54,307 bases of DNA from Rhodobacterales bacterium (lineage in GTDB: Bacteria > Pseudomonadota > Alphaproteobacteria > Rhodobacterales > Rhodobacteraceae). A program made the translations under genes and the position numbers. Shown in pieces: positions 37,018-52,020 of this stretch. Position 1 is the stretch's first letter, and the number at the start of each line of letters is the position of its first letter. The notes under the pieces were generated by a model. The model saw only the letters and a list, made by a program, of their open reading frames with translations, made no database searches and was not told the DNA's origin. The stretch is from assembly GCA_025362795.1 (NCBI GenBank), contig JANYFE010000019.1:1-54307 (forward strand). Direction: 5' to 3'.

Positions 37018-37884
37018 TCAGTGGCGGTGGGTTGCGGCAAGCTGGTCGGCGTAGCGCCATTCCAAGGCCGTCTTGAGCGTCAGGGTGACAAGCGCCAGGA
37101 GCGCCAGAACAGCAGCAAGCGTGAAGGCGGCGACCGAGAGATATTCGTTGTAGAGCATCTCGATCGTGATCGGCATGGTGGCAGTTTGCCCGCGGATTTT
37201 GCCGGACACGACCGCGACCGCACCGAATTCACCCATCGCCCGGGCGTTGCACAAAAGCGTGCCATAGAGCAGCGCCCAGCGGATTTTGGGCAGTGTGACG
37301 GTCCGGAACACCCGCCAGCCGCCTGCGCCAAGGGTCAGCGCGGCCTCTTCCTCGGCGCGGCCCTGTTCGATCATGACCGGGATCAGTTCGCGGGCAACAA
37401 AGGGGAAGGTCACGAACAGGCTGGCGAGGATGATGCCGGGCAGCGCGAAGATGACCGGGTGGCCGGAGGCAACAAGCCAACCGCCAAGGGTGGAGTTAGC
37501 CCCAAACAGCAGCACCAGGCACAGGCCCGCGACGACGGGCGAGACCGAGAATGGCAGGTCGATCAGGGTGATCAGGAACGCCTTGCCCCTGAAGTCGAAT
37601 TTGGTGATGGCCCAGGCAGCAGCCACGCCAAAACCGGCATTCAGCGGCAGCACCACGGCAGCGACGGTCAGGGTCAGACGGATGGCGGACGATGCTTCGG
37701 ACTTTGTCAGGGATTTGAGCGCGGCCCCGGCGCCTTTGGCCAAGGCTTCGGTAAAGACCACCGCCAAAGGGGCGTAAAGCAGGATGCACAGCAGGGCGAT
37801 GACGCCGATGGTCAGCGACCAGCGGGCCAAAGGGGCCTCATCGGTTGGGCTGCGGAAGGGTTTGACGCGGGAAATGTCAGACAA
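37018..37884 (-). CDS. cysW: Sulfate ABC transporter permease CysW
   Basis: This 288-residue permease has about six hydrophobic segments and the coupling loop EEEAALTLGAGGWRVFRTVT, followed by NARAMGEFGAVAVVSGKIRG, a CysW-typical motif. The start is taken as TTG at 37884, because GGAGGA lies six bases upstream and the first residues then read SDISRVKPF; it overlaps the end of cysT by 8 bp. A longer reading starting inside cysT would add a proline/serine-rich stretch unlike the family. It pairs with CysT to form the membrane channel. Confidence 0.88.
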   Translation of the reverse strand: MSDISRVKPFRSPTDEAPLARWSLTIGVIALLCILLYAPLAVVFTEALAKGAGAALKSLTKSEASSAIRLTLTVAAVVLPLNAGFGVAAAWAITKFDFRGKAFLITLIDLPFSVSPVVAGLCLVLLFGANSTLGGWLVASGHPVIFALPGIILASLFVTFPFVARELIPVMIEQGRAEEEAALTLGAGGWRVFRTVTLPKIRWALLYGTLLCNARAMGEFGAVAVVSGKIRGQTATMPITIEMLYNEYLSVAAFTLAAVLALLALVTLTLKTALEWRYADQLAATHRH

Positions 37885-38713
37885 GACCAATCCTCCGGCG
37901 GCTGAAGATTTGCACGATGTTGATGACCAGAAGCATGGTGAAGGCGATGACCAGCATGGCGATGCCGATGGCGGCGGCAGCGTTGTAATCAAACTCTTCC
38001 AGCCGGATCACGATCAGTAGCGGGGCGATTTCGGTTTTCAAGGGCAGGTTGCCCGCGATGAAGATCACCGAGCCGTATTCGCCGACCGACCGTGCCAAAG
38101 CCAGCGCGAACCCGGTCAGTGCGGCGGGAGCGAGCATCGGCAGGATGACACGCCGCAGGGTCATCAGGCGATGTGCGCCCAGAGTTGCGGAGGCTTCTTC
38201 GACCTCTTGCTCGATCTCTTCGATCACCGGCTGAACGGTGCGAGTGACGAAGGGCAGGCCGACAAAGATCAGGGCTATCAGGATGCCCCATTGGGTATAG
38301 GCGATTTTCGTGCCCAGCGTTTGGGCCAGATGCCCGAACACACCGTTGGGGGCATAAAGCGTGGTCAGGGCGATGCCGGCCACGGCGGTGGGCAACGCGA
38401 AGGGCAGATCGACAGAGGCGTCGATCAGCTTTTTGCCGGGGAAGTCATAGCGCACAAGCACCCAGGCCAGAGCCACCCCGAAGACAAGGTTGATCAGCGC
38501 GGCCAGCAGCGACAGGCGGAACGACAAAAACAGCGCCGTCCAGACCCGCTGGCTGTTGACCACCTGCCAGATGTTTGCGACGCCAAATTCGGCACCCTTG
38601 AACAGCAGGGCACCGATCGGCAGGATGACGACCAGCGACAGCATCGTCAGGGTGATCCCCATGCTTAGGCCAAAGCCCGGCATGGGAGAGCGCTGAAGCA
38701 GCGGACGGGTCAT
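37877..38713 (-). CDS. cysT: Sulfate ABC transporter permease CysT
   Basis: This 278-residue permease has about six membrane helices. Family features are [20 protein letters not shown], the coupling loop [20 protein letters not shown] and [18 protein letters not shown]. The ATG overlaps the sbp stop by 4 bp and its end overlaps cysW by 8 bp, so sbp-cysT-cysW are tightly coupled. It is also called cysU. Confidence 0.92.
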
Positions 38714-39825
38714 TTGGCCACGTAGATCTGATCAAACACGCCGCCGTCGCCGAAGTGTTCCTTCTGCACTTTGGCCCAGCCGCCAAAGTGGGCGATGTCG
38801 ACCAGTTCCAGTTTCGGAAAGCGCGCCACGTCTGCCGGGTCAGCCTTGGACGTATCCCAGCCGCGGTAGAAATTCTTGAAGATGATCGCCTGACCTTCAG
38901 GGGTATACAGGAAATCGAGATAGGCCTTGGCCAGCGCCTTTTGGTCATCATTGGTGATGTTGGCGTCGACGATCGCAACAGGGGGTTCGGCCAGAACCGA
39001 AATGCTGGGCACCACGATTTCGAAATTGTCGGCACCCAGTTCGCGTTGTGCCAGATAGGCCTCGTTTTCCCAAGCCAGCAGCACATCACCAATGCCGCGC
39101 TGGGCGAAAGTGGTGGTTGACCCGCGCGCCCCGGAATCCAGCACCGGCACGTGGGAATACAGCGCCTTTTCAAATTCGACCGGGTCTTTGCCGTTCTTTT
39201 CGGCCCATGCCCAGGCACCCAGATAGTTCCACCGCGCCCCGCCAGAGGTTTTCGGATTGGGCGTGATGACCTCTACCCCGCCCTTGATCAGATCGCCCCA
39301 ATCTTTGATGGCCTTGGGGTTGCCCTTGCGGACGAGGAACACGATGGTCGAGGTATAGGGGGACGAATTGTGCGGCAGCAGCGATTGCCAGTCTTTCGGC
39401 AGTTTACCCGCCCCGGCGATCTTGTCGATGTCTGACGCCAGCGCCAGCGTCACCACCTGCGCCGCCAGCCCGTCAATCACCGCACGGGCCTGTGCGCCCG
39501 AGCCGCCGTGCGAAGTTTCGATGGTGGGGGCCTCATGGCCCTGCCCCACCCACCAGGCCGAGAAGCCTTCGTCGATGGCGGCATAAAGTTCGCGCGTCGG
39601 GTCATAGCTGACGTTCAAAATGCTTTCGGCTTGCACGGTTTGCGGCTGACCGAGGCCAAAGACCGCAAGGGCAAGCGCGGCGAGTGCGCCCCTGACAAAG
39701 CGGGCCACGGGCCAGCCGGTGAACAGTTGCGACCCGGTCGAGATGGTGACGCGGCCATCATTATGGTCGCGCACATGAGTGCCCTGCGCCGTGATCTGTC
39801 CGGCAATGGTGATGGTCTTGAACAT
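38710..39825 (-). CDS. sbp: Sulfate ABC transporter substrate-binding protein
   Basis: This 371-residue periplasmic sulfate-binding protein has the mature region [63 protein letters not shown] and [17 protein letters not shown], all typical of Sbp/CysP. The signal-peptide core ([16 protein letters not shown]) starts only near residue 44, after about 40 polar residues. The ATG at 39825 nevertheless has a clear AGGAG upstream, so the extended N-terminus seems real at the DNA level. It is first gene of the importer operon. Confidence 0.9.
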
Positions 39826-39865
39826 CGTCTTCTCCTGCGATTCCTGACGCGGCCGTGGCGTTTGC

Positions 39866-39945
39866 CTTATCTCTATATCACGACAGACTTTGTAGAGATT
39901 ATCAATAGAAAAATATCGCCTGATTTAATCGTGATTATAGAATGG
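39866..39945 (-). promoter_or_regulatory. AT-rich promoter region of the sulfate operon
   Basis: This is the most AT-rich stretch nearby, directly upstream of sbp. On the minus strand it contains a perfect TATAAT (39939-39934). TCTCTA (39870-39875) and TAGAGA (39893-39898) form a dyad with a 17-nt spacer. The exact promoter and any CysB-like site cannot be fixed by eye. Confidence 0.4.
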
Positions 39946-40018
39946 GATTCTGCCTGGATCGCCACAGCGGCGAAAAATGGCTAAGGGCTGCGCCGGTGGT
40001 CGATTGGGCGGGTGGAAC

Positions 40019-40037
40019 CCGGCGCAAGCCGCGCCGG
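40019..40037 (-). terminator. Hairpin after the panB-like gene
   Basis: CCGGCGC (40019-40025) pairs with GCGCCGG (40031-40037) around a 5-nt loop, 2 bp beyond the stop of the last gene of the ten-gene operon. It has no U-tract. Confidence 0.4.
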
Positions 40038-40039
40038 AC

Positions 40040-40840
40040 TTAGCCCTGCACCATCAGGCTGCGGAAGCGGGCCAGTTCGCTGGGGTCCATCGCCACCACA
40101 TGCTGCGCCTGCGGATAGGCGCCGCTGGCGACATCGGCGATGAATTCACCAAAGGCCGCGATGCGTTCGGATTGCAACCGGTCATATTCGGCGGCGAAAT
40201 TGCGGTAGACTTTGGAATGGCGCGGCATGTGGCCGCGGTTTTCGCCCAGAATATCCTCGGCGAACAGGTACTGCGCGTCGCAGCCGGGACCAGCACCCAT
40301 CGACCACAGCAACAGCTTCAGTTTGGCGCTGATGGTGGTGGCGACCTCGACCGGGACAACTTCGATTTCGACGGCGAAAGCACCGGCGTCTTCGTAGGCC
40401 TTGCATTCATTGTACAGCGCCAGCGCGGTTTCCGCCGTCTTACCGACGGCCTTGAAGCCACCGGTCCAAGTGCTGCGCGACGGCACAAGACCGACATGGC
40501 CGACCACAGGGATATGTTCATCGGCCAGGAATTGCACAGTGCCCAGCCCGCCCGAACAATACAGCGCATCGGCCCCGGCTGCCAACATTTGCCCGGCAAA
40601 GCGCAGGTAATCCTCGCGCGTGCCGGCAGAGCGATGGTCAACGCCGGTCATCGAAAACAGGGTAGGTGCGACGTCGCGGTAGCGCGGATGGGTCACAAGG
40701 TCGGCGGGAACCGAGACGATGTCGATGCCAGCCTGTTCGGCGGCAGCGGCCTCGTCCAGCGTAAAGACGCGCAGCATGGTCAGCTGACCTTTGCCTTTCA
40801 GCGCACGCAGGTCGGCGACGGTCGGTTTCTTGCGGGCCAT
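40040..40840 (-). CDS. Divergent PanB-like (ketopantoate hydroxymethyltransferase superfamily) protein
   Basis: This 266-residue TIM-barrel protein aligns to PanB by VVGHVGLVPSR (PanB VxGHLGLTPQ, with the conserved His), VEIEVVPVEVA (catalytic-Glu segment LECVPxELA) and SMGAGPGCDAQYLFAEDILG (GAGxxCDGQxLVxHDxLG). However, the Mg-binding GDSLGM motif reads SVPADL, the second aspartate motif (xxDMPF) is absent, and KLEGG reads YCSGG. Canonical PanB binds Mg through these acidic residues, so the reaction is probably different, perhaps a C-C lyase on a sugar-derived keto acid (inference). It lies 11 bp after the desaturase gene, with AAGGAC upstream, at the end of a sugar operon with no panC nearby. 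Confidence 0.75.
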   Translation of the reverse strand: MARKKPTVADLRALKGKGQLTMLRVFTLDEAAAAEQAGIDIVSVPADLVTHPRYRDVAPTLFSMTGVDHRSAGTREDYLRFAGQMLAAGADALYCSGGLGTVQFLADEHIPVVGHVGLVPSRSTWTGGFKAVGKTAETALALYNECKAYEDAGAFAVEIEVVPVEVATTISAKLKLLLWSMGAGPGCDAQYLFAEDILGENRGHMPRHSKVYRNFAAEYDRLQSERIAAFGEFIADVASGAYPQAQHVVAMDPSELARFRSLMVQG

Positions 40841-40851
40841 TTTTTTGTCCT

Positions 40852-41955
40852 TCACAGCTGGCGGGACGGGACGGAATTGTCGGTATGGAATTCCTCGCGG
40901 TAGGGCCGTGCCGTTGGTGGCAGGGTGCGGCGCAGGTAGTAATCCGGTTCGTGGCGCTGACGGTTGACGGCTGTGACCATCTCGACCAACGCGTTGAAGA
41001 TGGAGGGATTGGGGGTCGGCAAATCGTCCTTGATCAGCGCATGCAGGCGCGGCAGGGCGTGATAGGGCACCATCGGGAACATGTGATGTTCGACATGATA
41101 GTTCATGTTCCAGTACAGGAAACGGCTGACGGGGTTCATATAGACGGTGCGTGAATTCAGGCGATGGTCGGTCACATTTTCGGCAAGACCACCGTGTTGC
41201 AGCAGGCCACACATCAGCATGTGCCAGCAGCCGTAGATGCGCGGCAAGCCGATGACCATCAGGGGCAGCCATGACCGCAGGACCAAGGCGAGGATGATCG
41301 TCGCCGCGTAGATGGCCATATGAACGCGGGCGGCGAAGATCGCCTTGGGCCATTCGCTGGCGGGGATGTAGTCCTTTTCAGAGGCAGAAAGAGTGCCTGC
41401 CGCATTGCGGGCGAGGATTTTCAGCGAGTCCCACACATCAACAACGCCAATGAACGACAGCGCCTTGCGCAGCATCAGAGGTGGCCGCATGAACGCAATC
41501 TCGGCATCGCGGCCCACGATGATCGTGTCGGTGTGGTGGCGGGCATGGCTCCAGCGCCAGCTGACCGGATTGCGCATGACCTGAAAGCTGGCGATCTCGT
41601 AAACCGCATTGTTCATCCACAGTGTCTTGAACGCAGTGCCGTGGCCGCATTCGTGCCAGCGGCTGTCGCAGGCGGACCCGTACAGCACGCCGTAGACAAA
41701 GAAGAACGGCACGCAGGCCCAGCTGCCCCAGAACGCGATGCCGCCCAAAGCCATCAGCACCAGCAGGCCCAGCCAGATCACCGTATCGCGGATGGCGGGG
41801 CCGTCGGTGCGCTGCATCAATTCCTTCATCACCTTGCGCGGCACGTCGGAATGATACCATTCGGCGCCCGCCAGCCCGGTTTCCAAGGCGCGGCGGGTGC
41901 TTTCGCCGGTCAGGGAATAGTCGCGTTTCGCAGTCGGGGGGACGGTCATGTCCAT
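40852..41955 (-). CDS. Membrane fatty-acid-desaturase-family di-iron enzyme
   Basis: This 367-residue integral membrane protein has the three histidine boxes of the desaturase/hydroxylase family: HECGH (101-105), HARHH (137-141) and HVEHH near residue 290. These bind the di-iron centre. Hydrophobic segments surround residues 60-95 and 210-240. Family members introduce double bonds or hydroxyl groups into acyl chains or small molecules; the substrate here is unknown. The start has GAGG seven bases upstream. It lies 12 bp after the DUF4432 gene and 11 bp before the panB-like gene, an unexpected place for a lipid enzyme. Confidence 0.85.
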   Translation of the reverse strand: MDMTVPPTAKRDYSLTGESTRRALETGLAGAEWYHSDVPRKVMKELMQRTDGPAIRDTVIWLGLLVLMALGGIAFWGSWACVPFFFVYGVLYGSACDSRWHECGHGTAFKTLWMNNAVYEIASFQVMRNPVSWRWSHARHHTDTIIVGRDAEIAFMRPPLMLRKALSFIGVVDVWDSLKILARNAAGTLSASEKDYIPASEWPKAIFAARVHMAIYAATIILALVLRSWLPLMVIGLPRIYGCWHMLMCGLLQHGGLAENVTDHRLNSRTVYMNPVSRFLYWNMNYHVEHHMFPMVPYHALPRLHALIKDDLPTPNPSIFNALVEMVTAVNRQRHEPDYYLRRTLPPTARPYREEFHTDNSVPSRQL

Positions 41956-41967
41956 GATAGTGCCTCG

Positions 41968-43158
41968 TCAGGTCTGTTCGGAATTGCGGTCGGCCAAGGA
42001 CGGGAAATGGTCGGAGAGTGGGGGGTAGGGATCGGCGGGCTGGGGGCCAGCCGCACGGATGCGGGCTTCGCAGGCGGCGATTTCTGACGCGCCGTCGAGG
42101 ACGGTAAAACGGGCGTCGTAATGGCGGGTGTCGTCATGGTTCAGCCAGATCATCTCGCCCCGGTCGCGCGCGGCCTGATTGCCGAGGACGTGGTGGGTCG
42201 AGGGTTCGAGGCCCATGACATAATTGCCGGACTGAAAGTTCTGCCACTGATAGGCGCAGGGCATCTGATCCTTGCGGGTCGTCACGCACAGGCCAAGGCC
42301 AAGGCGGTCGTTGATCAGCGCCATCGGCACCTCACCCCGGGCATCGGTGGCCATTTCGTGCTGCCAGACCTGTTCGACAAATCCGTTCGTCGGCGGCGGC
42401 ACGTCGCTGTAGCCGACATTCTGGGCGCGGTAGGTGGCGGCATGGGCGGCCCAAGGGCTGTCCTTGATAGGGGCGAGATAGCGGGAACCAGCGTCCAGCA
42501 ACGGGTAGCCGAGGTTGACGTGGTAGAAAAACATGTGCGGCGTCTTCAGGAAGCCGTGGTTGACCACGCGGTCGGACAGGCGAATTTCGCGGCCCCCCAC
42601 ATCGCATTCGATCCGCCGCAACAGGTGCAGATCCTCGCCAAACACGGTGCTTTGCTGCACCACGCCCTCCGCCCACAGGATGCAGCGGTCGCCGTCCCAT
42701 GTCTCGCCGTAACCGGTCAGCCGGGCCGGGATGGTGCTGATGCGGCCATGCTGGGTCTGGCGCACCAGCTTGCGGCCCGGATAGTTGTAGTGGCTGGCGT
42801 CCACATCGGCGGGACCAAGGATATGGTCCAGCCCGCAGGTGACAAGGAAGCCCGAAAAGCTGCGGACCCAGGCAAGGCCAAACTCGCCCTCGCTGTTGTG
42901 CAGGCCGGGGTGGCGGAAACCGGATGGCGAATGCCAGCCGATCGCCTGCCCCTTGTAGTCCAGATCGGCGATGTCCAAAGCCCGGTCCACCAGCACGGTA
43001 AACCGCAAGCCGCTGCCGGCCCGAAACTCCAGCATCCGCACACCACGTTCCACCCCGTCGCCCAAAGTCATCAGGCGAACTCCGGCGAATTGGCCGAGTG
43101 ACCCGGTCCGTTCGGCGAGGTCGCGTTTCGTATGGGAGGAACCGTATAACTCGACCAT
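41968..43158 (-). CDS. DUF4432 aldose-1-epimerase-like protein
   Basis: This 396-residue protein matches the DUF4432 family, a relative of galactose mutarotase. It has RFTVLVDRALDIADLDYKGQ, IGWHSPSGFRHPG, FFYHVNLGYPLLDAGSRYL and MGLEPSTHHVLG, with a histidine-rich active-site-like core. Aldose epimerases interconvert sugar anomers, and a sugar-binding role is inferred. The ATG at 43158 starts MVELYGSSHTKRDL, a usual family N-terminus; upstream in-frame codons run into low-complexity alanine/glycine sequence. It is fourth from the end of the ten-gene operon. Confidence 0.82.
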   Translation of the reverse strand: MVELYGSSHTKRDLAERTGSLGQFAGVRLMTLGDGVERGVRMLEFRAGSGLRFTVLVDRALDIADLDYKGQAIGWHSPSGFRHPGLHNSEGEFGLAWVRSFSGFLVTCGLDHILGPADVDASHYNYPGRKLVRQTQHGRISTIPARLTGYGETWDGDRCILWAEGVVQQSTVFGEDLHLLRRIECDVGGREIRLSDRVVNHGFLKTPHMFFYHVNLGYPLLDAGSRYLAPIKDSPWAAHAATYRAQNVGYSDVPPPTNGFVEQVWQHEMATDARGEVPMALINDRLGLGLCVTTRKDQMPCAYQWQNFQSGNYVMGLEPSTHHVLGNQAARDRGEMIWLNHDDTRHYDARFTVLDGASEIAACEARIRAAGPQPADPYPPLSDHFPSLADRNSEQT

Positions 43159-43211
43159 GTCTGCCTCTGCTGCCGAAGATGCGGCGCCGGAACCCCCGGC
43201 GCCACACCTTA

Positions 43212-44123
43212 TCAAAGCCCGTTCGCCACGAACTTGCCATCCAGAAACTTTTTGGACCGGGGCACATCCGCCTCGTCCAGATGTTCGATGATCACCGGGA
43301 TGTTCGGATGCTTTTCGGCGAGGCGTTGCAGATACAGGTCATAATTCAGCACCCCCATCCCCGGCGCATCCAGCGCAATCGCGCCAACGCCCCGGAACGT
43401 ATGGCTGGCCAAGGCATCATCATCGCCGATGTCGGCGTGCTTTTCCGACGTGTCCTTGGCGCGGGCCACATCTTTGGCATGGGCAATTTTCACTTTGTCG
43501 GCCAAAGTGTCGAACACCTGATTCAGGATCAGGTCCATCTTGTCGATGTTGTGATCCTCGAAATAATTGGTCGGGTCCATCAGCAGGCCCAAACCGGGAT
43601 GATCGACCTGCGCGAACATCTTCACGGTTTCCTCAACCGAACCGACCACATTGTTCACATAGGTTTCCAACAGGAATGTCGCCCCATGGTCGTAAGCTTC
43701 CTGAGACAGTTCAGCGATGACCTTGCGGCACATCTCGAACCCCTCCTCCGACTTGTTCTTCGGGTCCGACATCCATTCGGACTCAGTATTGTAGGTGCCG
43801 GTTTCCGAGATGACATAGGGGGTGCCGAAGGCGCGGGCGTTGCGGATCAGTTCTTTCAGGCGGTCGACATTGGCTTTGCGGTGGGCCAGGTCGGGATGGA
43901 TGATGTTGGTATAGCCTGACAGGCAGCAGATCGGCAGGTCATGGGCGCGGAACGTGTCGCGCACCCGTCTGGCCTTGCCGGCGGTGATCTGGCCCGCCGA
44001 CAGGTCGATGTCCTTGAAATGCAGGTCCAACTGCACGGTGTTGAAGCCGTGGCTGCGGATGCGCTTGGCAGTTTCCTCCAGCCCATAGGGAAAATAGCCT
44101 GTGAAAATCCCGGATTGCATCAT
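43212..44123 (-). CDS. Sugar phosphate isomerase/epimerase family TIM-barrel protein
   Basis: This 303-residue xylose-isomerase-like TIM barrel (AP endonuclease 2 family) has TVQLDLHFKD near the N-terminus, TFLLETYVNNVVGSVEET and GLLMDPTNYFED, with metal-site-like E, D and H residues, and AHAKDVARAKDT near residue 215. Relatives are ketose 3-epimerases, inosose dehydratases and similar enzymes, so the exact reaction is open. It starts with two adjacent ATGs preceded by AGAGGA. It lies 14 bp after the oxidoreductase gene in the operon. Confidence 0.8.
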   Translation of the reverse strand: MMQSGIFTGYFPYGLEETAKRIRSHGFNTVQLDLHFKDIDLSAGQITAGKARRVRDTFRAHDLPICCLSGYTNIIHPDLAHRKANVDRLKELIRNARAFGTPYVISETGTYNTESEWMSDPKNKSEEGFEMCRKVIAELSQEAYDHGATFLLETYVNNVVGSVEETVKMFAQVDHPGLGLLMDPTNYFEDHNIDKMDLILNQVFDTLADKVKIAHAKDVARAKDTSEKHADIGDDDALASHTFRGVGAIALDAPGMGVLNYDLYLQRLAEKHPNIPVIIEHLDEADVPRSKKFLDGKFVANGL

Positions 44124-44137
44124 GGTGGTATCCTCTC

Positions 44138-45220
44138 TCAGTGCGTTGAAATTTCGGACAGTTTGACGGTGCGGCCTTCAGCGATGGATTTATACCCCGC
44201 CTCGATCAGCGCCACGGTTTTCACATTGTCGGCGACGGTCAGCGCCGGGGGCGTGCCGGTGGCAACAGCATGTTGCAACTGCTCCATGACCCCGATGAAC
44301 GCATGCGGGAACCACATCGTGTCCCACGTCGGCGTGACCCATTTTCCGCCGGTGGTTTTCTGCGACGCATAGGTCAGGGTCGATGCCGCCCCGGTGGGCC
44401 AGCCGATGGTGCCCTTGGCAACACCGTGGGTGCCATCGACACGGAAGCTGATGTGCTGGTCATTGTCATAGCCTTCGGCGCGGGGGCCGGACCAGACGTC
44501 TTCCAGCGACAGGGCAAGCACACCAGACGGAAAGCGCAGGGTCGACACGGTGATACCATCGGTATGGTCGAACGTGGTGCGCGGGTCTTTGCGGGTTTGG
44601 GTGGTGATCTCGGTGGGATCGCCGAACAGGAAGCGCAGCACGTCAAGGTGGTGGACCGACATGTTGGCAAGTGTCAGGCGGTCATAGCCCGCCAGAAAGC
44701 CCTGCCAGTGCGGGATGGCGTGCATGTCGATCTGGGCAAAGACCACCTCGCCCAGATCGCCCGCATCCAGCAACTGCTTCAACACCCGCATCGACTGGTC
44801 ATAGCGCATGTTCTGGTTGACGCTGAGCAGTTTGCCCGCCGCTTTGGCCTCATCCCGCAGGGCGACAGCTTCGGACAGGCTGAGCGCAAGTGGCTTTTGT
44901 GCCAGAATCGCCTTGATGTGCGGTTGCTTCAGCGCTGCCCGGATTAGGGCCGGTTGCAGGTCTGGCGGATAGGCGATGTCGAGAATTTCGATGCTGGGAT
45001 CGGCAATCAGGGCATCGGGTGTGGCATGGACCTTGGGGATTTTCCAACGGTCCGCAACAGCCTGCGCCCTGGATTCAGTCCGCGACGCAATGGCGACCAC
45101 CGGAAAGTCCGCCTGCGCATAGGCGGCCAGATGGCATTCCGCCATGATCATGCCCGCACCGATGCAACCGATGCGAAGAGAGCGGGTTCTGATTTCGGGG
45201 TCGGGTGCGAATGTCGTCAT
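44138..45220 (-). CDS. Gfo/Idh/MocA family oxidoreductase
   Basis: This 360-residue NAD(P)-dependent oxidoreductase has the Rossmann motif RIGCIGAGMIMAECHLAAY near residue 20, then ILAQKPLALSLSEAV with the conserved lysine after an unusual glutamine (QKP for EKP) and NQNMRYDQSM. Typical substrates are sugars or inositols. The ATG at 45220 follows GAGGGAACC; an upstream ATG would add eight residues into the spacer. It lies 13 bp after the second ATPase gene, so uptake and oxidation are co-expressed. Confidence 0.83.
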   Translation of the reverse strand: MTTFAPDPEIRTRSLRIGCIGAGMIMAECHLAAYAQADFPVVAIASRTESRAQAVADRWKIPKVHATPDALIADPSIEILDIAYPPDLQPALIRAALKQPHIKAILAQKPLALSLSEAVALRDEAKAAGKLLSVNQNMRYDQSMRVLKQLLDAGDLGEVVFAQIDMHAIPHWQGFLAGYDRLTLANMSVHHLDVLRFLFGDPTEITTQTRKDPRTTFDHTDGITVSTLRFPSGVLALSLEDVWSGPRAEGYDNDQHISFRVDGTHGVAKGTIGWPTGAASTLTYASQKTTGGKWVTPTWDTMWFPHAFIGVMEQLQHAVATGTPPALTVADNVKTVALIEAGYKSIAEGRTVKLSEISTH

Positions 45221-45233
45221 GGTTCCCTCGGGT

Positions 45234-46247
45234 TCAAGCGGCAATTGCCGCGCCGGTTCGGTCGAAAAGATGCAGGCGGGCGGGGTCGACCGACAGGCCG
45301 ACCTGTTCGCCCAACGTATAATCCGGCTGACCGCGCAGCGCCGATTTCAGCGCGCTGCCGCCAGCCTGCACGGTCAGAATAGTGGTTGCGCCCATCGGTT
45401 CAATGGCGGTGACTTGGGCCGCCCCGCCCCGGCTGACCCGCAGGTCTTCGGGGCGGATGCCGAGGGTCTGGGTCGCGGCGGGCAGGTCGCGGCCCGTGTG
45501 AAGTACAGCGCCCTGCGCGGGCAGAAGGTTGATGGCGGGGGCACCCAGCATTCCCGCGACATATGTGCTGGCGGGGTGATCATACAGATCATGTGGGGCA
45601 CCGATCTGGGCTATTTTGCCATGGTCAAGAATGGCCATCTGGTCACTGACCGACATCGCCTCTTCCTGATCATGGGTGACATAAACCAGCGTGTGACCCA
45701 GTTCGCGCTGGATGCGTTTGAGTTCGACCCTCGTTTCCTCGCGCAGACGGGCATCCAGCGCCGAAATCGGATCGTCCATCAGATAGGCGACCGGATCGCG
45801 CACCAAAGCGCGGGCGATGGCGACGCGCTGCCGTTCGCCACCTGACAGCTGGCTGGGCGGCTTGTGCAGGATGTGGGTCATGTGCAGCTTTTCGGTGACG
45901 GCGTCGACCCGGGCACGGATGATATCTTCGGCAATGCCACGCTCGACCGGCGGGAAGCGGACGTTCTGCAGGGCCGTCATATGCGGGAACAGCGCGAGGT
46001 TCTGGAACACCATCGCCACGTTGCGTTTGGCGGGCGAGATGCCAACTACGGGGCGATTGTCGATGTAGACCGCGCCGGAGTCGGGGGTTTCGAGGCCGAG
46101 GATGATTTTCAGGATCGTGGATTTGCCGCTGAGCGGCGGCCCGAACAGGCAGAAAAAGGCGTTGTCGCGGACCTCGAAGCTGACATCATCCAAGGCGAGC
46201 GTGTCGCCAAACCGCTTGCTCACGCCTTGAAACCGGATGCTGGCCAT
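45234..46247 (-). CDS. Carbohydrate ABC transporter ATP-binding protein A (catalytic Glu replaced)
   Basis: This 337-residue MalK/UgpC-like ATPase has an ABC domain and a C-terminal TOBE region. Walker A is GPPLSGKST (36-44), unusual in its PPLS. The signature LSGGERQ (134-140) is canonical. Walker B reads AYLMDDP (154-160), so the catalytic glutamate after the Walker B aspartate is Asp (D159). The H-loop YVTHDQEEAMS is intact. Its partner (46247-47323) has the mirror defect. The Walker A form resembles GlpS of the rhizobial glycerol importer, as I recall it. The start overlaps the stop of the partner by 1 bp (TGATG). Confidence 0.88.
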   Translation of the reverse strand: MASIRFQGVSKRFGDTLALDDVSFEVRDNAFFCLFGPPLSGKSTILKIILGLETPDSGAVYIDNRPVVGISPAKRNVAMVFQNLALFPHMTALQNVRFPPVERGIAEDIIRARVDAVTEKLHMTHILHKPPSQLSGGERQRVAIARALVRDPVAYLMDDPISALDARLREETRVELKRIQRELGHTLVYVTHDQEEAMSVSDQMAILDHGKIAQIGAPHDLYDHPASTYVAGMLGAPAINLLPAQGAVLHTGRDLPAATQTLGIRPEDLRVSRGGAAQVTAIEPMGATTILTVQAGGSALKSALRGQPDYTLGEQVGLSVDPARLHLFDRTGAAIAA

Positions 46248-47323
46248 CAGGTCGACCCTCCGATGGCGTTGCCGGTGGCAGGGTCGAACAGGCGGATGGC
46301 TTGGGGGTCTACACTGAAGCGCAAGGTTTCACCGGGCTTCGGCGGCGTGGTGTCGTTGTCCAGCACGGCCTTGGCCTGCGCGGCCCCCGCCCCTAGGTGA
46401 AGGATGCTGCGGGCACCGATGCGTTCGACAAAGCTGACAGGCAGGGTCAAGGCACCATGGCTGTCGGGGGTGACCTGTTCCGGGCGGAAGCCGAACAGCA
46501 CCGGGCCGGGCCGCGCGGCCACCGCAGGCACCGCCGCCCGGCCCATCGACCCCAGATCAACCACCATGCCACGGTCGGACTGGGCCAGCGTGCCCGGCAG
46601 GATGTTCATGCCCGGCGCGCCAATGAAACGGGCGACGAATGTGTTCTGCGGGTTGTTGTAGATGTCGAGCGGCGTGCCGGTCTGCAACAGCTTGCCCTGA
46701 TCCATCACGGCGATGCGGTCGGCCATCGTCATCGCCTCCAACTGGTCATGCGTGACGTAAACCATCGTCTGACGGAACTGCCGCTGCAACGCCTTCAACT
46801 CACCCCGCATCACGGCGCGGAAGGCCGCATCGACATTGGAGAGGGGCTCATCCAAGAGGAAAATCGCAGGCTCCACCACGGCGGACCGGCCAATGGCGAT
46901 GCGTTGCAGGATGTTGACGGACAGACCCGCCGAGGGGCGATCCAGCAACGGCGTCAGTTGCAACAATTCCGCAATCGCCGCCGTGCGCCGTTCCCGCTCC
47001 GCCCGCGCCACGCCTTGCGCCCGCAGGCCATAGGCCAAATTCTCGCGCACCGACATATGGGTGAAAATGGCGTAGTTCTGAAACACGAACCCCACGCCAC
47101 GCCGCGCCATCGGCAGGTTCACCACGTTGCGGCCGTCGAACAGGATTTCCCCCTCTGACGGCTGTAGCATCCCGGCTATCATGTTCATCGTGGTCGATTT
47201 GCCGCAGCCAGAGGGCCCCAGCAGCGCCACGAACTCGCCATCGGCAATCGTCAGGTTCATCGCCGACAGCGCGGTAAACGGCCCGAAACTCTTGCCCAGA
47301 TTGTTCAGCGCAATCTCGGTCAT
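46247..47323 (-). CDS. Carbohydrate ABC transporter ATP-binding protein B (degenerate signature)
   Basis: This 358-residue MalK/UgpC-like ATPase has a good Walker A GPSGCGKST (36-44) and Walker B IFLLDEP (154-160) with the catalytic glutamate, and H-loop YVTHDQLEAMT. The signature, however, reads LSVNILQR (134-141) where LSGGQQQR is usual. A C-terminal TOBE region is present. Together with protein A it would form a heterodimer with one complete and one degenerate ATP site. GlpT of the rhizobial glycerol importer shows a comparable loss of signature (from memory). The ATG overlaps the permease stop by 4 bp. Confidence 0.88.
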   Translation of the reverse strand: MTEIALNNLGKSFGPFTALSAMNLTIADGEFVALLGPSGCGKSTTMNMIAGMLQPSEGEILFDGRNVVNLPMARRGVGFVFQNYAIFTHMSVRENLAYGLRAQGVARAERERRTAAIAELLQLTPLLDRPSAGLSVNILQRIAIGRSAVVEPAIFLLDEPLSNVDAAFRAVMRGELKALQRQFRQTMVYVTHDQLEAMTMADRIAVMDQGKLLQTGTPLDIYNNPQNTFVARFIGAPGMNILPGTLAQSDRGMVVDLGSMGRAAVPAVAARPGPVLFGFRPEQVTPDSHGALTLPVSFVERIGARSILHLGAGAAQAKAVLDNDTTPPKPGETLRFSVDPQAIRLFDPATGNAIGGST

Positions 47324-48215
47324 TTCGCCACCTTCATCCGGCGCAGCGCGAACACCGACACCACCGACATGACGATCAGGATCGACAGGGCAATCGCCGC
47401 GACATAGCCCCAGATCAGGTCGTTCTGGGTGACTTTGTAGATATAGACACTGATGGTTTCCGTAGCCACACCCGGCCCGCCGCCGGTCATGATGTACAAA
47501 GTGTCGAAGATCTTGAAGATCTCGATGATGCGGATGGCCAGCGCTATGATTATGATGGTCTTCATCCGCGGCAGCACGATGGTAAAGAAGCGTCTGGGCC
47601 AGGACGCGCCCAGCAAGACCGCCGCCATCTGCTGATCCTGCGGCACCGACACCATGCCAGCAGGATCAGGAACATCAGCGGCGACCATTGCCAGATATCG
47701 GCGACCATGACCGCAAACAGCGCAAGGTTCGGGTCGGAAAGCCAGGCGATCTGCACCGGCGAGGTGGTGAAGAAGGACAGGATGTCATTCACCGGACCGC
47801 CGGACTGAAACAGCAGGAAGAACATGTAACCGGCGACGGCGGGCACCACCATCATGGGGATCAGCAAGGTGGAATAGAACCAGCGCTTGCCGGGAAACTC
47901 ATCGACGAACAGCACCGCCAACCCCAGCCCGATCAGAAACTGCACCGGCACGCAGACCACCATCACCACCAGCGTCCGCCACATCGCGGCCCAGAACCGG
48001 TGATCGCTGGCCAGATCGGTGTAGTTGATCAGCCCGATCCACAACTCATAGGCGCGGTACCACGGGATCCCCTCCAGCGGCGTCCAGTCGGTCAGCGAGA
48101 TATAGATCTGCATCAGGATCGGGAACAGCGAGATGAATAGCACCAGCAGTTGCGCGGGCAGGGTCAGCCGGAAGCCCAGCTTTTGTTCCTCGGTCTTGGC
48201 GGAAACGTCACTCAT
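47320..48215 (-). pseudogene. Carbohydrate ABC transporter permease (MalF type), frameshifted
   Basis: The N-terminal part (48215 down to about 47657) reads [20 protein letters not shown] with helices up to WQWSPLMFLILLA. The frame then shifts at about 47653-47658; the second half continues in another frame as MVSVPQDQQMAAVLLGAS to the stop at 47320. The shift needs one extra base, or an extra four: an expected ...LLAGMVSVP is compatible with loss of 4 bp from a GCCGGC. The break is about ten codons before the EAA coupling loop (AAVLLGASWPRRFFTIVLP), so a truncated product could not contact the ATPases. The joined length, about 298 residues, is normal. A sequencing or assembly error is the main alternative. 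Confidence 0.85.
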
Positions 48216-49072
48216 TCCTTCAGCGCCCCAAAGGTCAGCCCGCGCACCAGATGTTTCTGGATTGCGATGCCGAGGATGACGGGCGGAATGGCGGCGATCA
48301 GGCCCAACGCCGCCTTGGCGCCATACAATTGTCCGGTCATCGAGGAGGACAACGATGCCATATAGACCGGGATCGTGACCCAGCTGCGCGTGGTCAGCAG
48401 AAGGGCGATCAGGTAATCCGACCAGTTCAGGATGAACACGAACAGCGCGGACGATGCCAGCGCGGGGCGCATCATCGGCAGGGTGATCTTCAGGAATACC
48501 CGCAGGCGGGTGCAGCCTTCGACCAGTGCGGCATCTTCAATCTCACGCGGCATGTCATCGAAGAAGGTCTTCATCAGCCAGAAGGCAAAGGGCAAAGTGA
48601 CGATGCCGTAATTCACCGAAAGGCCGACCCAATTGTCGATCAGACCCAGAAACGACCACATGATCATCACCGGGATCATCACCGCCATCGGCGGAAACAG
48701 GCGCAACTGGATCAAGGCGAGGGGCAGGTTGCCACCCTTGCCGAACCGAGACAGGCCATAGGCGGCGGCGGTGCCGGCACTCATCGCAATCAGGGTGCCA
48801 AAGATGGCGGACAACAGCGAGGACAGGATCGGGCGGACGGCGGTGCGGTCCAAGGACACGATCAGATCGGATGACGACTGGCCAAAGATGAAGCGAAAGT
48901 TATCCAGGGTCGGCTTTTGTGGCCACCATGTCAGGTCGGGGCCGGTGGCCGACCATTCCGCGATGGGTTTGAACGCCATCGACAGCATCCACAGTGTCGG
49001 CACCAACGAGATCGCGACGATCAGCAGGATCATCGCATACCTGAACATTTCAAATGGTAGTGAGCGGCGCAT
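48212..49072 (-). CDS. Carbohydrate ABC transporter permease (MalG type)
   Basis: This 286-residue inner-membrane permease of the CUT1 family has about six hydrophobic segments and the coupling loop [20 protein letters not shown] with [10 protein letters not shown]. The N-terminal [20 protein letters not shown] is the first helix. The ATG at 49072 has GGAGG six bases upstream; longer readings run back into the binding-protein gene and are rejected. Its end overlaps the start of the frameshifted permease by 4 bp. Confidence 0.9.
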
Positions 49073-49143
49073 GCCACCTCCGGCAGGGTCAAAAAGGCAC
49101 CGGGGGGCAGGCACCGCCCACCCCCCGGCAGTTCGGGAAGTCG

Positions 49144-50745
49144 TCAGACCGGGTCGATAACCGAGGGCCAGGCCGCTTTGTTGGCCTTGATCGCCTCGAC
49201 CAGTTTGTCTTCGCCAATCCGCCGCGCGATTTTCTTCCACTCGGATTCGGTGTCGGCCATGGCCTGTTCGGCGGTCTTGGTCTTGGTCAGCGCCGCCACC
49301 AGGTTTTCGTCCAGCGCGTTGTGGAACGCCGTCGCACCGGGGTAGTTGATTGTCGGCACCGTGCGTTTGACCGTCTCGCGCACCACATCCATGTGGTAAT
49401 CGTGATAGGTCTGCCGCACCAGTGGATCGGCGAAGTTCGACAGTTGGAACGGGTCGAAATAGCCACCCGGATTGGCCGTCATCCAGGAATAGATCCGGCT
49501 TGACCCCAGCCATTGCAGCAGCAGATAGGCGGCTTCGGGATGGGCCGATTGCGTCGAAACGCTGGCCGACAGGTTCAGCCACAGCACCGACCGGCTGATC
49601 AGCCCGCCGTCAATCTCCCGCCCCGGCGGCAGGTGCGACCCGATCTTGCCGGTGACTTTCGACCCTTCGTTGCCCGCATTGTCGAGGAATTTCGGCAGGT
49701 TGGAAAAGGCGCAGGTCATGGCGGCCCCTGCGCCTGCAAAGTTGCCATATTGCTCTGGCCAGCTCCACGAAATCGCATCCGGTGAATGATGGGCCAGCGA
49801 GGCGATATATTCGTTGGTCGCCGCAACGCCATTGTCGGAATTGATCAGCGAGGTGCCATCGTCATTGAACAGGAACTGGTTCGGCGAGGCCATCGAGACA
49901 TAGCGCTGATACCAGTTGGTATAGCCCCAGCCCTGATTGCGCAGATCGGTGGACCCGAACAGGCCCTGATCCGGGCGGTGGAAGAAGCCGGCAATCTCGT
50001 CATGCTGTTTCCAGGTTTTCGGCGGGGCCAAGGCATAGCCGAACTTGTCAGCGAACGCCTTTTGCTCGTTCGGATCGCCGAACAGGTCGGTGCGGTGGTT
50101 CCAGGTCTGGAAGTCGCCGTCCAGCGACACGCCATAGGTTGACCCGCGATAGTTGTTCATCAGGTTGACGCCATTGGCACCCCCGACATAGCCGCGCTCC
50201 GCATCGTCCCATTCGGGTTTATGGGCGGCGACATATTCGTCAAGGTTCACGATGCCGCCGGTTTCCGCCAGATCGCCCAGACGGTTCCACTCGACGGCAT
50301 AAATGTCGAACGCGCCGCCCTTGGTCGAGATATCCTGCATGACCTTGGTGAATTCCTGACCGTTCGGCACCCCAACGATGTCCAGGATAATGCCCGTCTC
50401 GGCCTCCCACAGATCCTTGATCGACGGGGCACCTGCCGGGAAGGGCTGGGTGATCTGGCCGATGGACCCGTCCGACAGGCCCAGCACGATCCGCTCCAGT
50501 GCCTTTCCAGCGGCCTTCAAAGCCTTGGCCGCCTCAATCGCGCGGCCCTCTGGCGTGTCGGGGCCATACTGATACCGCTCCGCCCCGTCAAAACCAACCG
50601 GGCCGCCGATCATGCCATCGGCAAGACCCGTCGCCGCGCGGGCACGACCGGGCCGCAGATACAATGGCAGGCCAAGGCCAACCACCCCGGCGCTGGTCGC
50701 GGAAGACAGAAACGCCCTGCGCGAGACCGCGTTTTTCTTATCCAT
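49144..50745 (-). CDS. Tat-exported family 1 extracellular solute-binding protein
   Basis: This 533-residue periplasmic binding protein has a twin-arginine leader ([22 protein letters not shown] at 9-10, cleavage-like ARAA). It is longer than most sugar-binding proteins (about 400-450 residues), close to the large GlpV type. Features include [51 protein letters not shown] and [14 protein letters not shown]. The substrate is unknown; neighbours point to a sugar or polyol. The start at 50745 has GGGGGGAG upstream. It is first gene of the operon, divergent from the LacI regulator. Confidence 0.88.
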
Positions 50746-50799
50746 CGTTTTCTCCCCCCAGATGGCGTTTCTGCTACCATTGCCGGCCAGATTTGATGT

Positions 50800-50847
50800 A
50801 AAATGACAGGATAACAATCTTCATTAACCAGCATATTCCGTCATTTT
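50800..50847. promoter_or_regulatory. Spaced inverted repeat in the lacI/transport-operon intergenic region
   Basis: AAAATGAC (50800-50807) and GTCATTTT (50840-50847) are perfect inverted copies whose starts are 40 bp apart, in the AT-richest part of the 203-bp divergent region. Candidate regulator site; the rest of the gap shows no gene. Confidence 0.45.
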
Positions 50848-50948
50848 CCGCCAAAGCGCCCACAAATTCGCCATCTCCCGCTTGCCAGAGGATGACAAGT
50901 TGGCAAGGATGGCGGGGTGGGCGCACACCCACAGGACCGGGGGGAGCC

Positions 50949-51956
50949 TTGAAGACAACCGTAAGCCAGATCGCGCAAGAGGTTGGCCTGTCGCCCACAA
51001 CGGTGGACCGGGTGCTGAACGGGCGCGAGGGCGTCAAACCGCGCACCCATGACATCGTCATGCAGGCCGCCCGCAGGCTTGGCTACTTCGGCCCGGTCAG
51101 CTTGCAGGAACATGCCGACCTGCGAATGGATTTCATCCTGCCCGGCGGAAGCAACACTTTCATGGCCAACCTGCGCAAATATCTGCTGGAAGAAGCGCAG
51201 GCCTATGGCGGCGTGCAGCCCAATCTGCATGTGATCGACGGCTTCGACCCCGACCGCCTTGCCGCCCGCCTGCGCGAATTACACGGCAAGACCGATGCGG
51301 TGGGCGTGGTGGCGCTGGATCACCCCACGGTGCGCGAGGCGATCAATCAGCTGGCGGCAACCGGCGTGCGGATCGCGACCTTGGTGTCCGACATCCGCTC
51401 TGTCACCAAGGTCGGCTACATCGGCATCGACAACCGCGCGGCGGGGCGGCTGGCGGGCCTGTTGATGGGCCGCTTCCTGCACCCCGACAACCAGCATTAC
51501 ATCGTGGTCTTCATCGGCTCGCCGTCGTATCGCGGCCATGAGGAGCGCGAAATGGGCTTTCGCGCCGTGATCGGCCAGGATTTCCGCAACCTGCGGATTT
51601 CGGCGCTGGTGCAGGTGAACGAGGACCGCGACCGCGCCTATGAGGAGACGCGGGCGATATTGGCGGCGGGGCGGCCGTCGGCGTTCTACAACATCGGGTC
51701 GGGGACACAGGGGATTGCGCAAGCGCTGAAGGAAGCCGGGATGGAGCGGCAGGTGGTGGTGATCTGTCACGAACTGACCGACGCATCCAAGGCGCTGCTC
51801 TTGGACCGCACGCTGGACGCGGTGATCGACCAGAACCCGAGGGTCGAGGCGCGGGAGATCGTGAAGCTGCTGGCGGCCGCAGTGCGTGGGACCAAGGAGC
51901 CGGAATATCCGCCACGCTTGCAGGTGATGTTCAGCGAGAATATCCCGCAGGCGTGA
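50949..51956 (+). CDS. LacI-family transcriptional regulator
   Basis: This 335-residue repressor has the helix-turn-helix TVSQIAQEVGLSPTTVDRVL, NGREGVKPRTHDIVMQAARR and a periplasmic-binding-type effector domain (FILPGGSNTFMANLRKYL, GVVALDHPTVREAI, VGYIGIDNRAAGRLAG). The start is taken as TTG at 50949, preceded by GGGGGGAGCC, because the HTH then sits at the usual distance from the N-terminus. It is divergent from the binding-protein gene and is the likely regulator of the ten-gene operon, with an imported sugar as inducer (inference). Confidence 0.88.
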   Translation: MKTTVSQIAQEVGLSPTTVDRVLNGREGVKPRTHDIVMQAARRLGYFGPVSLQEHADLRMDFILPGGSNTFMANLRKYLLEEAQAYGGVQPNLHVIDGFDPDRLAARLRELHGKTDAVGVVALDHPTVREAINQLAATGVRIATLVSDIRSVTKVGYIGIDNRAAGRLAGLLMGRFLHPDNQHYIVVFIGSPSYRGHEEREMGFRAVIGQDFRNLRISALVQVNEDRDRAYEETRAILAAGRPSAFYNIGSGTQGIAQALKEAGMERQVVVICHELTDASKALLLDRTLDAVIDQNPRVEAREIVKLLAAAVRGTKEPEYPPRLQVMFSENIPQA

Positions 51957-51966
51957 GCGCTGACAG

Positions 51967-52020
51967 GCCGGGGATTTCACATCCCCCGGACCCCCTGTGG
52001 GATATTTGGGGACAGATGAA
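51967..52020. repeat. GC-rich hairpin element (copy 4)
   Basis: CCGGGGAT and ATCCCCCGG pair around TTCAC, followed by ACCCCCTGTGGGATATTTGG and GGACAGATGAA. The whole is an inverted relative of the copy at 34092-34148. It lies between the convergent lacI and aldo/keto reductase genes and may act as their common terminator. Confidence 0.65.

Follow-up and report, generated by a model that had tools for sequence, protein, structure and literature searches.

A MocD-family oxygenase and a PanB-like protein in a Rhodobacterales sugar-transport operon: a candidate route for O-demethylation and one-carbon handling

This report concerns a ten-gene operon in a draft genome of a Rhodobacterales bacterium (108 contigs); the window analysed is one whole contig of 54,307 nt. 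We propose, at a probability of roughly one half, that the operon imports and oxidises an O-methylated sugar or cyclitol, that a MocD-type oxygenase demethylates it, and that a PanB-like protein handles the one-carbon (C1) unit, probably toward tetrahydrofolate (THF). Import of such a compound and removal of its methyl group is the probable part; the PanB-like protein may then pass the released C1 unit to folate. The families of the genes, their linkage across genomes and the loss of PanB residues are directly observed; the demethylation, the substrate and the folate chemistry are inferred. The two genes at the centre of the proposal are:

40852..41955, minus strand: MocD-family membrane di-iron oxygenase ("desaturase"; PF00487), as assigned below
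40040..40840, minus strand: PanB-like TIM barrel (partial PF02548), distinct from ketopantoate hydroxymethyltransferase (PanB)

Judged by its sequence, the PanB-like protein is not PanB and belongs to a separate clade, because it scores about half the PanB cut-off, branches apart and has lost PanB residues. It reaches 101.4 bits against a cut-off of 207.55 for TIGR00222 and 126.4 against 272 bits for NF001452, and the same genome also carries a canonical PanB (311 bits). Its predicted structure (predicted local distance difference test score, pLDDT, 91.9) has the PanB fold, with 1m3u as best PDB match (Foldseek E 5e-19, template modelling score 0.68) and isocitrate-lyase/PEP-mutase lyases as the next nearest folds. 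With matches shorter than 220 aa or with stops dropped, none of the residues equivalent to PanB D45, S46, D84, K112 and E114, which we take to be the metal and ketoacid site of PanB, is kept in any of 145 distinct PanB-like sequences including that of the window; K112 is replaced by Y in 144 and D84 by G in 141, and H136 and E181 are retained in 145 and 144, respectively (D84, K112, E114, H136 and E181 numbered from the 1m3u alignment). The canonical rows of this comparison were 19 of 20 controls (locus L199 was dropped) together with L193, L194, L195 and L239. In a tree of 105 rows, one branch with support 100/100 separates 23 canonical or PanB-type rows from 82 PanB-like rows.

The "desaturase" is assigned on similarity as a MocD-family di-iron oxygenase. 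It is 68.6% identical over 353 aa to MocD of a Phyllobacterium zundukense rhizopine cluster (L083), and its histidines H101/H105, H137/H140/H141, H254 and H287/H290/H291 are invariant in 14 aligned rows. The L083 cluster holds a substrate-binding protein (SBP), a Gfo/Idh enzyme, a MocR-type regulator, desaturase, ferredoxin and reductase; its regulator scores 765 bits against the 650 cut-off of the NCBIfam equivalog "rhizopine catabolism transcriptional regulator MocR". In plasmid records the oxygenase homologues carry the name mocD, and next to them come either mocE and mocF or a gene for a "MocE family 2Fe-2S type ferredoxin"; among the relatives the MocE of L037 and L034 passes TIGR02377. 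A preliminary description of this DNA could match the set to no described pathway; because the oxygenase is a MocD homologue, the set does match a described kind, the MocDEF module of rhizopine catabolism. The same genome carries a second MocD at C61 (L034:6337-7410), with an in-frame TAG near L034:6890, beside an intact MocE and a PanB-like gene.

The oxygenase and the PanB-like gene are consistently linked. Among the best 80 of at least 516 confirmed PanB-like relatives in named genomes, a set dominated by Mesorhizobium, MocD is present in 80 loci, MocE in 71 (69 at another threshold), Gfo in 58, the TIM barrel in 55, DUF4432 in 50, and MocF and PurU in 7 each. The PanB-like gene lies downstream of MocD on the same strand in 79 of these 80, and the five-gene core of Gfo, TIM barrel, DUF4432, desaturase and PanB-like gene occurs together in 41 by identity thresholds, ten of which also have a permease that shares 60% identity or more with that of the window. 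This co-occurrence exceeds chance. Culturable bacteria with this core include Tabrizicola rongguiensis J26 (L092) and Rhodobacter ruber CCP-1 (L093). The earlier suggestion that desaturase and PanB-like protein belong with the transport and oxidation genes is thus borne out, and the neighbourhood comparison across genomes that had been put forward as its check upheld the link. The idea that a lipid desaturase and a pantothenate synthesis gene are hitch-hikers in the operon was dropped, because the pair is linked in 80/80 loci and the genome has its separate canonical PanB.

Two other samples agree with this picture. Within 101 relatives, a MocD row is no more than 3 kb away from 38 of the 52 stronger PanB-like rows and from none of the 66 weaker ones, which are mostly of canonical type; seen from the other side, 29 of 44 MocD rows have a PanB-like gene within the same distance. 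A phylum sample of 398 genomes gave 38 rows (2 from the genome studied here, 2 from genome G087, 24 retrieved and 10 weak ones, about 1e-36, left out); with L239 left out of the count as PanB-type, MocD, FA_hydroxylase or MocE was found within about 8 kb of 20 of 23 PanB-like loci, as compared with 0 of 20 canonical panB loci. Thirteen PanB-like copies have no close MocD (one, L191, has a distant one), and 11 of these lie near another oxygenase or a MocE ferredoxin, seven of them beside an FA_hydroxylase and one beside a Rieske oxygenase. The FA_hydroxylase queries came from L182, L189, L190 and L079, so that L182, L189 and L190 match themselves; Pfam confirmed PF04116 for three of the proteins. 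The oxygenase partner varies (MocD, FA_hydroxylase, Rieske type) while the PanB-like protein remains, which fits a shared C1 product.

Eight loci (L181-L185, L187, L233 and L234) hold a parallel operon of mostly FA_hydroxylase (PF04116), MocE, a Hyi-like TIM barrel, the PanB-like gene and Gfo, to which L187 adds MocF, FolD and PurU; this looks like a second kind of oxygenase system, again paired with the PanB-like protein. A Rhizobium leguminosarum plasmid (L079:10792-19984) carries Gfo, TIM barrel, sterol desaturase, a MocD-like gene and iolE/iolD, and no PanB-like gene was seen there.

The rhizopine loci themselves place the PanB-like gene beside folate genes. In all 14 plasmid records with a MocR of at least 80% identity, which come from few lineages (Sinorhizobium, Rhizobium and Phyllobacterium), mocD, mocE, mocF, the PanB-like gene and purU stand in line on one strand, and folD comes next in six; tblastn splits the PanB-like match in L168, L170 and L180, mocD in L173, purU and mocR in L180, and folD in L177-L179. 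In L124 purU begins before the PanB-like gene has ended, within its last codons. Plasmid loci of Mesorhizobium huakuii and Agrobacterium show the order LacI, mocD, mocE, mocF, PanB-like gene, purU and folD, and folD and purU accompany the PanB-like gene in L080, L082 and L187. Rhizopine is 3-O-methyl-scyllo-inosamine, and judging from this name the O-methyl is the sole obvious C1 group of the substrate (PMC3538637). Ferredoxin-fed oxygenases of the MocDEF type serve methyl ether catabolism according to PMC10107442, PMC5789663 and PMC3538637, and the word "hydroxymethyltransferase" is absent from the main text of these three papers. In a literature search we recognised no paper in which a PanB-like protein is connected with MocD, with rhizopine or with O-demethylation, most subscription papers lying outside its reach, so that novelty is unproven.

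Regulation tells the window apart from these loci. Paired moc-boxes, described as 11-bp boxes with 13-bp spacing (PMC10107442), precede mocD in 14/14 rhizopine loci, and 0 of 60 simulated sequences held such a pair for each of three loci tested. L083 has two pairs with 13-bp spacing, before mocD and before mocB (L083:7548-7582 and L083:9152-9186). Only the 11-13-11 pairs exceed chance; single boxes in L083 do not (22 versus a mean of 15.9, and 10 of 100 shuffles reach 22). Positions 39001-52000 of the window hold no moc-box pair, and the regulator there is LacI in place of MocR.

The order of events that we envisage is as follows. The ABC transporter would import the O-methylated sugar or cyclitol, and the Gfo/Idh enzyme, the TIM barrel and the DUF4432 protein would oxidise and isomerise its ring. 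The MocD-type membrane di-iron monooxygenase, fed with electrons by a Rieske-type MocE ferredoxin encoded elsewhere in the genome, would strip the O-methyl group, the oxidised methyl ether becoming a hemiacetal that releases formaldehyde; here we presume that MocDEF itself performs the demethylation. The PanB-like barrel, no longer a ketopantoate hydroxymethyltransferase, would take the C1 unit, most likely onto THF to give 5,10-methylene-THF, and where folD and purU follow, this unit would be burnt to formate. PanB uses methylene-THF, and this chemistry together with purU and folD points to THF as the acceptor. Of all single readings of the PanB-like protein we favour a C1 role, because this protein stays constant while the oxygenase changes and because FolD and PurU, where present, form the route from methylene-THF to formate. 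Spontaneous condensation of formaldehyde with THF is considered too slow as an effective route, and an uncharacterised enzyme is not ruled out in PMC7073904. A wider claim is tentative, and the odds are somewhat against it: the whole moc-type PanB-like family might move formaldehyde, or an O-hydroxymethyl group, from ferredoxin-fed oxygenases onto THF, as a folate counterpart of Fae that evolved from PanB by losing the metal and keto-acid site and that acts in the rhizopine operon and in many methyl-ether operons, including that of the window.

Several results weigh against this proposal. Neither mocE (best E 0.78), mocF (best E 0.90), purU nor folD was found in the window, and the MocE-like and MocF-like genes of the genome lie outside the operon (C61:7429, 68%; C6:29486, 42%). 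Among the 101 relatives, 15 of 44 MocD rows, some of them at contig ends, are without a PanB-like neighbour within 3 kb, and 14 of 52 PanB-like rows lack MocD; the PanB-like copies of L186, L196, L230, L237 and L240 have none of the partners searched for, L230 and L240 being a contig-edge match and a partial match. A purU gene is near only 7 of the 80 nearest and 1 of the 23 phylum-sample loci, and folate genes are absent from the surroundings of most PanB-like loci. The genome itself yields no PurU above cut-off, and its class III alcohol dehydrogenase could take care of formaldehyde. Neighbourhood alone can mislead: for porphyran, a dehydrogenase next to an O-demethylase proved to have no part in formaldehyde detoxification (PMC10033563). 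Deletion of panB in E. coli left formaldehyde-dependent growth unchanged, and deletion of panB and ltaE had no effect (PMC7073904), a result that bears on canonical PanB and not on the PanB-like family. Finally, the PanB-type proteins of L193 and L194, beside VanA-like oxygenases, keep the GDS motif and K112 and cluster with canonical PanB, and for these reasons we excluded them from the support for the moc-type family. These two loci (L193:7383-9316 and L194:6041-9261) show another PanB-type subfamily beside a VanA_C Rieske oxygenase, and L194 also has a GcvT-type folate protein. No Fae match was found in the genome.

The alternative that survives best, unlikely as we hold it to be, keeps demethylation and dispenses with folate: the PanB-like protein would aid breakdown of a bound O-hydroxymethyl intermediate, or hand formaldehyde on to something other than folate, for instance a keto sugar or glutathione. 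The scarcity of folate genes beside PanB-like loci and the PurU and alcohol dehydrogenase results from the genome speak for it, and the purU of all 14 rhizopine loci, the six folD genes, the L124 overlap and the three loci where folD and purU adjoin the PanB-like gene speak against it. A little less likely again is a lyase that cuts a C-C bond of the oxidised sugar and so takes off a hydroxymethyl branch adjacent to a keto group, by reverse PanB or retro-aldol chemistry after MocD has hydroxylated the ring. This is close to the hydroxylation or desaturation followed by C-C cleavage offered in the preliminary description; the nearest folds, PanB and then the lyases, are compatible with it, and the Gfo/Idh enzyme could supply the keto group. 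We regard it as less likely than O-demethylation with C1 transfer because the equivalents of D45, D84, K112 and E114 are gone in 145/145 sequences and the gene adjoins purU, at times folD, after mocDEF. Rhizopine, the substrate of the 14 loci in which the PanB-like gene follows mocDEF, has no hydroxymethyl branch, and the gene pairs with varied sugar enzymes. Least probable is that MocD hydroxylates the ring or side chain of a compound lacking a methyl ether, as GntB does on L-arginine, with no demethylation in the operon: GntB is among the weak NCBIfam matches of both the window oxygenase and L083 MocD, and a distant relative adjoins a guanidino-acid enzyme (L081), but the window oxygenase resembles rhizopine MocD far more than GntB, for which it scores 22 bits where the cut-off is 380, and it has the same PanB-like partner as rhizopine MocD.

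The rest of the operon and its regulator are laid out below.

50949..51956, plus strand: LacI-family regulator; start placed by eye (about 50949; longest open reading frame, ORF, 50892-51956)
50792..50855, between regulator and operon: imperfect inverted repeat, a predicted possible operator, with two 22-nt arms, 77% complementary
49144..50745, minus strand: SBP (PF01547, E 8.5e-16), with a twin-arginine-like N-terminus as judged by eye
48212..49072, minus strand: MalG-type permease (PF00528)
47320..48215, minus strand: MalF-type permease, frame broken near 47655, as two overlapping ORFs with in-frame stops
46247..47323, minus strand: UgpC/MalK-type ATPase (PF00005, PF08402)
45234..46247, minus strand: UgpC/MalK-type ATPase (PF00005, PF08402)
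44138..45220, minus strand: Gfo/Idh/MocA-family dehydrogenase (PF01408, PF02894)
43212..44123, minus strand: xylose-isomerase-like TIM barrel (AP_endonuc_2, PF01261)
41968..43158, minus strand: DUF4432, aldose-1-epimerase-like (PF14486, E 1.7e-92; 3ty1, E 4.5e-29)

ORFs and Pfam confirm an operon of ten minus-strand genes (40040-50745) facing the LacI gene; neighbouring genes are 71, 53 or 11-14 bp apart or overlap by 4 or 1 bp. The order, gaps and overlaps given in the preliminary description hold; it overlooked the break near 47655, which splits the second permease into ORFs 47562-48215 and 47320-47688 and is due to a sequencing error or a true loss. In the six relatives examined, out of ten with a similar transporter, this permease is a single open stretch; its 5′ piece here is not recognised by Pfam and matches NCBIfam permease models only weakly. 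Pfam otherwise recognises the parts of a CUT1-type importer: SBP_bac_1, one BPD_transp_1 permease and two MalK-type ATPases. The SBP has no PDB sequence match at E 0.01, and LacI-type NCBIfam models match the divergent regulator weakly, none above cut-off. No terminator-like site was found on the minus strand between the DUF4432, desaturase and PanB-like genes. Promoter-like matches lie inside the DUF4432 (42845) and PanB-like (40585) genes, and an internal promoter may exist; the scan gave seven matches against a shuffle mean of 3.4 (sd 2.2), about twofold, and no usable promoter call. A strong minus-strand hairpin with a T-run (49130-49098) follows the SBP gene and precedes the permease, where it may act as an attenuator or stabilise the mRNA. 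The operon is followed immediately, on its own strand, by sulfate ABC transporter genes (37877-39825; SBP and CysT permease, both above NCBIfam cut-offs).

Together, the Gfo/Idh enzyme, DUF4432 and a TIM barrel of the keto-sugar type suggest a route by way of a keto sugar or a keto cyclitol. The nearest solved structure to the Gfo/Idh enzyme is 5uhw (E 1.1e-27); the apiose-type pathway that it suggested was dropped, the match being distant, and no substrate is inferred from it. The AlphaFold2 model of the TIM barrel (pLDDT 74, poor at 220-258) matches keto-sugar 3-epimerases, YcjR, 2-hydroxy-3-keto-glucal hydratase and DgpB-C with similar scores in Foldseek, and a PDB sequence search gave no match; a substrate assignment from this partly poor model was set aside, with no single answer among the folds.

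If the proposal is true, the PanB-like protein and PurU join the rhizopine operon as two members not named in the cited accounts, and the annotation of a protein family as a vitamin B5 enzyme hides a different function. It would also offer a concrete candidate for an enzyme joining formaldehyde to THF, a question raised in PMC7073904, and a pointer to the use of O-methylated sugars and cyclitols by soil and freshwater bacteria.

Among known systems, the closest is rhizopine mocDEF (with mocCABR) of Sinorhizobium meliloti L5-30 and Rhizobium leguminosarum, which shares with the window a MocD-family oxygenase, a PanB-like gene downstream, ABC uptake, and Gfo/Idh and TIM-type partners. Unlike these loci, the window has LacI and not MocR, no mocE or mocF, a CUT1 type of transporter and DUF4432, and its Gfo has no significant match to that of L083 at E 1e-5. 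The LacI(fixV-like)-mocDEF clusters of rhizobia (PMC3538637) likewise have a LacI-type regulator divergent from the mocD operon, and the PanB-like gene follows mocF in L074, L075, L078, L080 and L082; they differ from the window in having mocE and usually mocF, and no window-type transporter in the operon. With PanB (TIGR00222; 1m3u) the PanB-like protein has the fold and the H136 and E181 equivalents in common, whereas D45, S46, D84, K112 and E114 are lost, the score is below cut-off and the clade is separate. Demethylation of 6-O-methyl-D-galactose from porphyran (PMC10033563) is likewise an oxidative removal of a sugar O-methyl group that gives formaldehyde, as we propose here, though by a cytochrome P450 and not a membrane di-iron oxygenase, and no PanB-like enzyme is named in that account. 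Fae (PMC7073904) shares the proposed job, in that it catalyses the joining of formaldehyde to a C1 carrier, but belongs to an unrelated family and uses tetrahydromethanopterin, where the carrier of the PanB-like protein would be THF.

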